From an uncultured Pelagibacteraceae bacterium (GTDB taxonomy: Bacteria; Pseudomonadota; Alphaproteobacteria; Pelagibacterales; Pelagibacteraceae), in NCBI GenBank assembly GCA_902615435.1, contig CACMOZ010000008.1, forward strand, positions 1 through 33,173: DNA of 33,173 nucleotides, written 5' to 3'. Positions 13,473 to 24,492 of this stretch are shown piece by piece. Position numbers and translations under genes: made by a program. The notes under the pieces are model-generated. The model had not been told where the DNA came from. It searched no databases and saw only the letters and a program-made list of their open reading frames with translations. How positions within the stretch are numbered: position 1 is the stretch's first letter; each line of letters opens with the position of its first letter.

Positions 13473-13514
13473 AATACCACTTGTATTCCTAATATACGGC
13501 GTTACATTCATCTT

Positions 13515-22119: not shown

Positions 22120-22273
22120 TTTGATCTATTTTTAGTTCAAAGATAACATGAACACAAAATAATAGTTAAAAAACCCCTATTTTATTAATAAATAAGCCTA
22201 ATTTATAACGTGATAAAATTACAACACATGCTAAAAAAGTCAATAAAAACTACAAAATTAGCAACTTTTGATA

Positions 22274-22294
22274 GGTCAAACTGATAGTTTGGCC
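22274..22294 (+). promoter_or_regulatory. Hairpin 1 in porin leader
   Basis: Arms GGTCAAACT and AGTTTGGCC around a GAT loop form a 9-base-pair stem with one G-U pair. It lies 41 bases before the first porin's ATG and abuts hairpin 2. There is no T-run after it, so it is not a typical terminator. It is a candidate 5'-leader structure or operator. Confidence 0.5.
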
Positions 22295-22314
22295 AAGTTT
22301 ATAATTATAAACTT
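22295..22314. promoter_or_regulatory. 20-base perfect palindrome in porin leader
   Basis: AAGTTTATAATTATAAACTT reads the same on both strands. It follows hairpin 1 directly and ends 21 bases before the porin ATG; the ribosome-binding site AAAGGAA (22324-22330) comes just after. As DNA it could be a dimeric repressor site; as RNA, a stabilising hairpin. The centre, TATAATTATA, also contains -10-like hexamers, so a promoter here is possible too. In the rest of the 216-base gap (22120-22335) I see no gene and no clear -35/-10 pair. Confidence 0.5.
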
Positions 22315-22335
22315 AAACTTAACAAAGGAAAAATA

Positions 22336-23373
22336 ATGAAAACAATAATTAAAACTTTATTAGTTTCTATCGCTTCTTTGTCTTTAATGTTTTCTGTTAA
22401 TGCAGGTGAATTAACAGTTAACGGTACTGCTAAAGCTACATACAATGCTACAAGCGGTAACCAAAATGACAATGGTATCGGTATTACTAATGAATTAAAC
22501 TTAACTGCTAGTGGTGAATTAGATAACGGTTATACATGGAGCTACTCTTTGGAAATGGATACTGCTTCTGGCGGAACAAACATGAACAATGATGACACTA
22601 AGATCACTATTGGCATGAATGACATGGGAACAATTAAAGTTTGTGTATCTGAATGTGGAAATAACAAGAAATACTCTTGGGATGCTTCAGCATATACTTC
22701 TATGTCTGATACAGGAACATCGTACGGTATAACATACCCAGGCGATGCTGGTGCATCAAGTACTTCAACTATTCAGTACCACACACCAGAATTACCTTTT
22801 GGTACAACAGCATCATTTGCTTATAATACTAACATGGGACATGACTCTGCTTCAGGAAATGAGCCAGGTGTGTCAGGTAACTCAAGACAAGAGTACTCTA
22901 TAGTAACTAAGCCAATTGATGGTTTAACAGCATCTGCTCACTACAATAAAGTGAACGATTACGAAGATGGCGTTGACACAGAAGACCAACTTGAAGAAGG
23001 TGGATCTTGGGGTCTAAAATACGCTGCAGGTAACGTAACAATTGGTTATGGTAAATCTTTTCAAGCTCCAGAAGCTTTAGAAGCTAACAGAACTAGCGGT
23101 GCAACTAATGTTGAATACTATGAAAATACTGGTATGTCATTTGGTTATGCAGTTAATGATGCAGTATCTGTGTCTTACACAAGAGAAACATCAGAAGCTA
23201 ATTACCAAACTTCAACAACGACTGCTTACGATGTAGAAATGGACTCAGTCCAAATCGCATACAATGTTGGTGGTGCTACACTATCATTAGCTAGAGCTGA
23301 TGTAGAAAATGCATCTTACACAGAAGCGAACGACTTGACTGAAACTATTATCGCTATGACGTTTGCGTTCTAA
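22336..23373 (+). CDS. Porin (outer-membrane beta-barrel), copy 1
   Basis: A 345-residue general-porin-like protein (porin 4/16-strand class). Seen: Sec signal peptide ending VNA before GEL (about residue 23), then alternating beta strands with Gly/aromatic turns (TAKATYNATSG, ELDNGYTWSYSLEMDTASGG, SWGLKYAAGNVTIGYGKSF), and the C-terminal strand ending in Phe (AMTFAF) needed for barrel assembly. The region KVCVSEC (C103, C107) corresponds to the constriction-loop segment usually without Cys. A good ribosome site AAAGGAA lies 5 bases from ATG. It has better codon regularity and more Gly/Ala than its neighbours, as expected for an abundant protein. It is followed by a strong terminator and by a paralogue. 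Solute specificity cannot be told. Confidence 0.9.
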   Translation: MKTIIKTLLVSIASLSLMFSVNAGELTVNGTAKATYNATSGNQNDNGIGITNELNLTASGELDNGYTWSYSLEMDTASGGTNMNNDDTKITIGMNDMGTIKVCVSECGNNKKYSWDASAYTSMSDTGTSYGITYPGDAGASSTSTIQYHTPELPFGTTASFAYNTNMGHDSASGNEPGVSGNSRQEYSIVTKPIDGLTASAHYNKVNDYEDGVDTEDQLEEGGSWGLKYAAGNVTIGYGKSFQAPEALEANRTSGATNVEYYENTGMSFGYAVNDAVSVSYTRETSEANYQTSTTTAYDVEMDSVQIAYNVGGATLSLARADVENASYTEANDLTETIIAMTFAF

Positions 23374-23393: not shown

Positions 23394-23424
23394 AAAAGGG
23401 GCGATTTTATCGCCCCTTTTTTTT
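23394..23424 (+). terminator. Strong intrinsic terminator after porin 1
   Basis: AAAAGGGGCGAT, loop TTT, then ATCGCCCC followed by eight T: an 8-base-pair GC-rich stem, extendable by four A-T pairs, with a three-base loop. It lies 21 bases after the porin stop and is the only clear intrinsic terminator in the window. Confidence 0.93.
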
Positions 23425-23451
23425 GACTTTTTAAAAACTGATTGGCATAAT
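23423..23451 (+). promoter_or_regulatory. Sigma-70-type promoter of porin 2
   Basis: TTGACT (23423-23428), 17-base spacer, CATAAT (23446-23451): one mismatch to consensus in each hexamer. The -35 overlaps the last T residues of the upstream terminator. A start 6-8 bases after the -10 would fall at about 23457-23459, on the porin ATG (23458). Confidence 0.7.
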
Positions 23452-23457
23452 GACTCC

Positions 23458-24492
23458 ATGAAAAATAGTTTGAAAAAAATAATTGTTCTATTAATCAGTA
23501 CAATTTTCAGCGCATCCGCGGTATTTAGTGGTGAACTGAAAGTATCAGGTACAGCTAAAGCTACTTACAACAGTGTTAGCGGTACACAAGTGGACCAAGG
23601 AATTGGTATTACTAATGAATTAAACTTTACTGCTAGTGGTGAAATGGATAACGGTTTTACATGGGCGTATTCTATGGAATTGGATACAGCATCTGGCGGT
23701 ACAGCAATGAACAATGATGATACACAAATCAGTCTTACTTTGAATGATATGGGTATAATTAAAGTTTGTGTATCTGAGTGCTCTAACAACAAAAAATATG
23801 CATGGTCAGCCGACGCTTATGCTGTAATTACAGACACTTCTTTGGAGGAAAGTATTGTTTATCCTACTGGAGAAGATAGCTATGCCACTATTCAGTATCA
23901 CACTCCAAAACTTCTTTTTAATACAACCGCCTCTATAGCGTTTGGTCAGCAGAAAACTGACGGTCAAAGTGGTAACACCACAGCTACAAGCGGGGACTCT
24001 GCAGAATTTTATTCAATAGTGTCTAAACCATTAGATGGTTTGGTGATTTCATCATCTTACATGAAGGTAAACAAATACAGTGATGGAAGTACTGAAGAGC
24101 AACTAGAACAAGGTGGTGCAGCAGCTATAAAGTATAATATCAATAATTTATCATTTGGTTATGGGAAATCTTACAAATCTCCTAAAACAACACTTGGAAT
24201 TGGTACTAGCGATATAGAGTATTTTGAAAACACTGGTTACTCTTTAGGTTATTCAGTTAACGATAGTTTATCCGTATCCTATTCAAGCGAAGTATCAGAT
24301 AAAGTCCAGAGAACTTCAACAGATTTTACTCATAAGACAAAAGTAAAATCTCTACAAGCAGCATATTCTTTAGGTGGTGCAACATTGTCATTAGCAAGAT
24401 CTGAATATGATAACAGAGATTATAGACAGCATCCAAGACTTGGAACTACAGAAAATACAGAGACTATTGTGGCAATTTCATTCGCTTTTTAG
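23458..24492 (+). CDS. Porin (outer-membrane beta-barrel), copy 2
   Basis: A 344-residue paralogue of the preceding porin. Signal peptide with KKIIVLLISTIFSASAVFS, mature start near GELKVSG. The first 110 residues are highly similar to copy 1 in protein and DNA (GIGITNELNFTASGEMDNGF; NDMGIIKVCVSEC), while the middle, where surface loops lie, differs greatly, and the C-terminal strand again ends in Phe (AISFAF). The Cys pair (C104, C108) is kept. No Shine-Dalgarno is seen before ATG 23458, and the promoter just upstream would give a message with no leader. The pair looks like a tandem duplication with loop divergence. It ends 17 bases before the convergent ThiE-like gene. Confidence 0.9.
   Translation: MKNSLKKIIVLLISTIFSASAVFSGELKVSGTAKATYNSVSGTQVDQGIGITNELNFTASGEMDNGFTWAYSMELDTASGGTAMNNDDTQISLTLNDMGIIKVCVSECSNNKKYAWSADAYAVITDTSLEESIVYPTGEDSYATIQYHTPKLLFNTTASIAFGQQKTDGQSGNTTATSGDSAEFYSIVSKPLDGLVISSSYMKVNKYSDGSTEEQLEQGGAAAIKYNINNLSFGYGKSYKSPKTTLGIGTSDIEYFENTGYSLGYSVNDSLSVSYSSEVSDKVQRTSTDFTHKTKVKSLQAAYSLGGATLSLARSEYDNRDYRQHPRLGTTENTETIVAISFAF

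Follow-up and report, generated by a model that had tools for sequence, protein, structure and literature searches.

Porin duplication and the question it raises

The window analysed here, i.e. the whole stretch of 33,173 nucleotides from an uncultured Pelagibacteraceae bacterium of the SAR11 group, carries two porin genes in tandem, which show 54% identity and are separated by 84 bases. The question is whether the second copy is expressed from the promoter of the first or from one of its own, and, in the latter case, where in so short a space its mRNA would begin.

22336-23373, forward strand: porin 1 (Porin_4), the ancestral copy
23458-24492, forward strand: porin 2, 344 aa, a duplicate seen only in the window's genome among those searched

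The Porin_4 profile (PF13609) assigns 35.2 bits to porin 1, against a curated cut-off of 27, and 22.3 bits (E 0.00013) to porin 2, which thus remains below the cut-off despite its identity to the first copy. The space between the two genes holds, in this order, a hairpin, a run of eight T, TTGACT, 17 bases, an extended -10 (TGGCATAAT), six bases (23452-23457) and the ATG of porin 2.

23394-23424, forward strand: predicted intrinsic terminator of porin 1 (12-pair stem, 23394-23420; loop of 3; T-run, 23417-23424)
23423-23428, forward strand: predicted -35 of porin 2, TTGACT, sharing two T with the terminator T-run
23443-23451, forward strand: predicted extended -10 of porin 2, TG-G-CATAAT (TG 23443-23444, CATAAT 23446-23451)
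23458 (23456-23459 allowed), forward strand: predicted transcription start of porin 2, the A of the start codon, from the SAR11 calibration given below

Behind porin 1, a G+C-rich stem is combined with a T-run, as in intrinsic terminators, and termination is predicted at this point from the sequence. The fold (-17.7 to -20.7 kcal/mol, varying with the ends taken; z -4.8 to -5.9) was equalled by none of 200 shuffles. An earlier, sequence-only reading of this DNA had described the T-run as overlapping a TTGACT -35, followed by a 17-base spacer and a CATAAT -10, and both the sequence and a scan bear this description out, the terminator and the -35 having two bases in common. The TG ahead of the -10 was absent from that reading. 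With it, TTGACT-17-CATAAT is a predicted extended -10 promoter of the sigma-70 type, with 10 of the 12 hexamer positions matched.

The absence of a Shine-Dalgarno (SD) sequence had been proposed as well and was confirmed: the bases scanned upstream of the start contain no SD-like 4-mer, and porin 2 is the sole start without SD among the 47 porin starts examined (42 loci, made up of the best matches from the porin searches and six added ones, after removal of duplicate records of one genome). The first 40 bases of porin 2 fold at -1.7 kcal/mol. No in-frame ATG, GTG or TTG was found upstream of ATG 23458. A TTG at 23470 lies in the same frame, and a protein begun there would retain a plausible signal peptide, so that translation could be imagined to start at this TTG, with the predicted transcription start kept and a 12-base leader without SD. 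This is extremely unlikely, as ATG 23458 aligns with the starts of porin 1 and of the relatives, and a TTG without SD on a 12-base leader would be a poor translation start. A short frame at 23450-23461 (ATG ACT CCA TGA) overlaps the ATG of porin 2 with its end; translational coupling would be possible there only given a longer transcript.

Rarity of the predicted porin 2 promoter

Promoter-like sites are common in this AT-rich DNA (13 in 2.6 kb, against a mean of 10.8 in 50 shuffles), and the -35, spacer and -10 were therefore scored jointly, with the transcription start placed at the ATG and a gap of 4-8 bases between it and the -10. The gene sample consisted of 1,693,173 bases from seven SAR11 genomes, in which 1639 genes were called by a simple script; ORFs of fewer than 90 codons, genes cut by the end of a stretch or starting less than 90 bases from it, and GTG and TTG starts were dropped. 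The porin 2 promoter scores 11.5, which places it sixth among the 1639 gene starts. Among 20,000 dinucleotide shuffles of the 84-base region between the porins, 16 attain that score, as do 6 of the 25,750 gene-internal ATGs; a chance origin of this promoter is unlikely. In the DNA search with the porin 2 promoter region across 169 genomes of the genus, most of the matches listed concerned the generic terminator and a few, 23-32 bases in length, fell in other parts of the query; none of those listed from outside the window's genome covered both promoter and start.

Of 1181 co-directional starts, 12 have a terminator upstream with the end of its T-run 15-55 bases away, and porin 2 is one of the 12, which means that the packed layout is rare, though found at other genes as well. 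Ten of these 12 genes lack an SD, and several recur as orthologues in at least two genomes. The promoter of porin 2 is by far the best of the 12 (11.5, the next scoring 8.25). Two genomes (G000:C2:161218, i.e. L064:11218, and G133:C1:39344) have a gene encoding a small hydrophobic protein with its ATG placed behind a near-copy of the porin 1 terminator; a -10-like TATTTT is present at gap 6 in both.

Calibration against published SAR11 start sites

The distance at which transcription would start from such a -10 was taken from Hou et al. 2016 (PMC5069720), where in-situ SAR11 start sites were determined by mdRNA-Seq and where Table 2 gives HTCC7211 genes with start-site reads. Genome G200, in which gidA sits where that paper lists it, was used for the HTCC7211 coordinates. 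According to the text of the paper, the glcB start lies 162 bases before the ATG, and the listed glcB coordinate is located in G200 exactly 162 bases upstream of an ATG; since the two agree, the listed coordinates of such rows were taken as start sites. Of the 28 Table 2 rows with start-site reads, PB7211_8, atpD and PB7211_885 were excluded (start inside the frame, or frame unresolved), and the 16 rows with leaders of at least 11 bases served as the calibration set, in which the leaders of acpP (16 bases) and PB7211_130 (34 bases, the ATG being preferred to an earlier TTG) were set by eye. In these 16 HTCC7211 starts, the median gap between the best-scoring -10 and the published start is 6 bases (range 3-10), as exemplified by glcB (TTGACT-17-TAAAAT-6-start) and opuAC (TTGACT-17-CATACT-5-start). 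A median gap of 6 puts the predicted start of porin 2 on the A of its ATG.

Starts very close to a start codon are also listed in Table 2 of PMC5069720, namely 2 bases ahead of the ATG for trxB and hflK and 3 bases for ybhL, which means that near-leaderless mRNAs exist in SAR11. For actR, ahcY, PB7211_767, rpoZ, gidA and ftsH the listed coordinate is exactly the ATG, and it may represent either a start site or a mere gene coordinate. The word leaderless does not occur in the main text of that paper, and Table 2 contains no porin.

Control region of porin 1

The first copy is preceded by a different set of elements.

22209-22226, no strand assigned: operator-like palindrome upstream of porin 1, CGTGATAAAATTACAACA; relatives' consensus TGTTGTAA-NN-TTACAACA
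22282-22290, forward strand: predicted extended -10 of porin 1, TG-A-TAGTTT, with a putative start at about 22297
22295-22314, forward strand: palindromic, nearly AT-only hairpin with which the porin 1 mRNA is predicted to begin
22324-22329, forward strand: SD of porin 1, AAAGGA

When 16 close loci are aligned upstream of the gene, they have the palindrome, an extended -10-like TG-N-TA, a short palindromic hairpin and an AAAGGA-type SD in common; at the -10, TG-N-TA is present in 16 of 16 and TG-N-TA-N-TTT in 13 of 16. If transcription starts about 7 bases after this -10, the mRNA would open directly with the hairpin, and the leader of porin 1 would probably be about 39 bases. The long structured leader that the sequence-only reading had assigned to copy 1 is therefore unsupported.

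The hairpin, with a stem of at least 7 pairs, is present in all 42 first or single porins examined and beats shuffles at P <=0.05 in 35 of them, and although its letters vary, the pairing is kept. The hairpin is a possible stabiliser of porin mRNAs. The region 22200-22335 folds better than its shuffles (z -3.35), which is put down to this hairpin, and the fold of the 150 bases that precede the porin 1 promoter is weak (z -1.57, with 11 of 200 shuffles as good). In an Rfam search of the window no family reached the gathering score, which means that the porin 1 leader matches no catalogued RNA family at that score.

In 38 of these 42 porins the operator-like palindrome occupies positions -118 to -135 (a raw count, without shuffle control), being absent or displaced at L034, L036, L037 and L042. 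At its score it is the single site in 493 kb of the window's genome, located between DUF3576 and porin 1; in the stretches from six relatives it occurs at 3 porins and 4 other places, the porin lying outside the stretches of G068, G012 and G136. Some half-sites of this 18-base palindrome read TGTGAT, and its distance before SAR11 porins (L003-L049) is near-constant, while other places in the stretches sampled rarely carry it.

Origin of the duplicate and other porin pairs

In the 15 closest relatives (genomes 65-93% complete) one porin was found per genome, and this porin stands closer to the first copy of the window (60-75%) than to the second (51-59%). It is followed by a T-run terminator in 15 of the 15 loci, 9 of which have a near-identical GGGGCGA stem, and its neighbours, DUF3576 and a thiE-like gene, are the same in 14 (at L022, near a contig end, DUF3576 alone was found). 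No relative of porin 2 closer than 61% was found in 169 genomes of the genus or 397 genomes of the family (overlapping sets), and the search of the latter for a porin 2 orthologue gave porin-1-type genes only, 61% at best. A tree built from 30 porins puts porin 2 in a 17-row clade (97/97), where it sits on a branch of 0.79; the five-row clade to which porin 1 belongs (100/99) does not include it. Following from this distribution and tree position, the duplication would be either older than the sampled tips, with loss elsewhere, or recent, with fast change.

A long branch in a gene that is present in only one of the genomes searched would also be expected of a decaying duplicate, i.e. a porin 2 stripped of its expression signals and barely made, and the lack of SD, hairpin and operator, as well as of a terminator behind porin 2 in the scan, agrees with this. 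Decay is nevertheless very unlikely, as the gene is still open over 344 codons after 46% divergence, has a signal-peptide-like start and a terminal Phe, and carries a promoter that ranks sixth among the 1639 gene starts. The proportion of its codons that end in C, which is at the 95th percentile for 447 genes of the window's genome (porin 1: 99th), also argues against decay, but this index is weak evidence of expression, since dnaK is at only the 66th percentile.

Four other genomes (G148, G016, G078 and G144) have second porin copies in which the hairpin is absent as well, but the SD is kept. The hairpin between the copies has no T-run in G148, G078 and G144 (not in G016), which fits an operon in these three. 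Transferred to the window, this would mean a leaky terminator, a porin 2 that depends mostly on read-through transcripts begun at the porin 1 promoter, and a promoter-like site that is incidental. Such an operon is unlikely here: unlike those three pairs, the window pair has a full terminator between its copies (12 pairs, 8 T), porin 2 has no SD for use on a read-through mRNA, and its promoter score was reached by so few of the 20,000 shuffles. Some transcription may pass the porin 1 terminator. Among the porin duplicates seen in SAR11, porin 2 is thus unusual in combining a predicted promoter of its own with the lack of SD, hairpin and operator. At L046 (G078:C2) the second tandem copy is split over two frames, which may be a broken copy or an assembly error.

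Apparent recurrence of the layout at other SAR11 genes

The leaderless promoter layout of porin 2 seems to recur at other SAR11 genes. Full promoters, i.e. those with a score of at least 9.5, were counted in the 1639-gene sample at each gap before the ATG, with gaps 0-3 and 9-57 as background. At gap 6 there are 51, against a background mean of 12.3 and a maximum of 30, and at gaps 4, 5, 7 and 8 there are 19-21 each; with a score of at least 10.5, gap 6 has 17 against a mean of 2.1 (maximum 8). Gap 12 is also somewhat enriched in the seven-genome sample (30, mean 12.3). When the window's genome is left out, the 592 starts that are not operon-internal still give 26 at gap 6 against 5.15 (maximum 17) at the lower threshold and 11 against 1.0 (maximum 4) at the higher one. 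Operon-internal starts show little excess (13 against 5.0, maximum 15).

Conservation points in the same direction. In 478 orthologue pairs, a promoter with a common spacer is kept at gap 6 in 12 families, compared with no more than 6 families for each of the other gaps in the range 0-40; when at least 4 of 6 matches are demanded of the -35, 7 families remain at gap 6 and at most 4 at other gaps. Several of the 12 families have a weak -35 (3/6), and at least one pair is near-identical upstream. Examples are mnmG (13515), a ybhL-like gene and a gene which we take to be ilvB-like from its sequence. The first of these provides the second candidate in the window:

13481-13514, forward strand: candidate leaderless promoter of mnmG/gidA, TTGTAT-16-TACATT-6-ATG (13515)

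Its hexamers and spacings are identical in G133 and G074, and gidA of HTCC7211 has in-situ start-site reads, with the ATG as listed coordinate (PMC5069720).

Not all tests were equally clear. With the -10 alone, the window's genome has a distinct peak at gap 6 (21 of 159; mean 6.8 per gap, maximum 16), and its six relatives have no clear one (32, with 12-33 at neighbouring gaps); adding the -35 makes the peak clear in both. The quality of the -35 at gap-6 genes is slightly above that of others (three genomes; Mann-Whitney P 0.03, Fisher P 0.16), and starts supported by orthologues show no stronger gap-6 signal than the rest (6/75 versus 15/84). As the -10-only peak is limited to the window's genome and the -35 quality is barely raised, less weight is placed on a general claim for SAR11.

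Proposed control of the two porins

Taken together, we put the probability at roughly three in four that porin 2 is a tandem duplicate with its own promoter abutting the terminator and a leaderless mRNA, while porin 1 keeps the ancestral control. The separate control of the two porins and the leaderless nature of the second, both put forward in the sequence-only reading, are thus probably right as predictions, given the sequence, the comparison with relatives and the published SAR11 start sites.

Porin 2 would then be a tandem copy of the porin gene that this SAR11 genus has between DUF3576 and the thiE-like gene. Porin 1 would have retained the operator-like palindrome, the extended -10, the leader of ~39 bases with its 5' hairpin and the SD, and the terminator would end its transcription. 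For porin 2, RNA polymerase carrying the housekeeping sigma factor would bind to a promoter packed into the 33 bases between T-run and ATG, the -35 reaching two bases into the T-run, and transcription would begin on the A of the ATG or at most 2 bases from it. The resulting mRNA would be translated by direct recognition of the start codon, as in leaderless mRNAs elsewhere.

As for SAR11 in general, we lean towards the view that leaderless initiation is a regular mode, including at strongly transcribed genes, and that a duplicate can gain independent control in about 65 bases when terminator, promoter and start codon directly adjoin one another, with the operator, 5' hairpin and SD given up in exchange for a leaderless start. 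SAR11 are among the most abundant bacteria in the ocean. If the signal is right, the annotation of gene starts and the models of expression in SAR11 must allow for leaderless starts. The porin pair offers a natural side-by-side comparison, with related proteins encoded in the same place, one with operator, hairpin and SD and the other predicted to be leaderless.

Comparison with known systems

Stem-loops at the 5' end stabilise the mRNAs of outer-membrane proteins, e.g. that of E. coli ompA. The hairpin of porin 1 is similarly placed at the predicted 5' end, but it is short and nearly AT-only, and its effect is putative.

The literature search returned no report of leaderless genes in SAR11; in PMC2704228 the word leaderless was found once, in the reference list. 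Among the published SAR11 starts (PMC5069720), Table 2 yields starts 2-3 bases before an ATG, although the main text does not name them leaderless. Zheng et al. 2011 (PMC3160421) used a -10-like signal located some 12 bases upstream of the start codon as the mark of leaderless genes (TA-led genes), which were reported in 2 of 117 alpha-proteobacterial genomes, in a main text without the word Pelagibacter. Porin 2 likewise has a -10-like signal, but here the -35 and the exact gap of 6 were used in addition.

Leaderless mRNAs are known from alpha-proteobacteria, with 375 in Caulobacter crescentus and 171 in Sinorhizobium meliloti (PMC4117421). Porin 2 resembles these in its predicted start at the A of the ATG, its lack of an SD and the little structure in its 5' coding region, whereas it differs in being predicted from sequence, in being an outer-membrane porin duplicate, in a G+C content of about 29%, and in having a promoter that abuts a terminator. 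With leaderless mRNAs already known from Caulobacter and rhizobia, what is new here is the signal in SAR11 and the contrast between two sister porins.
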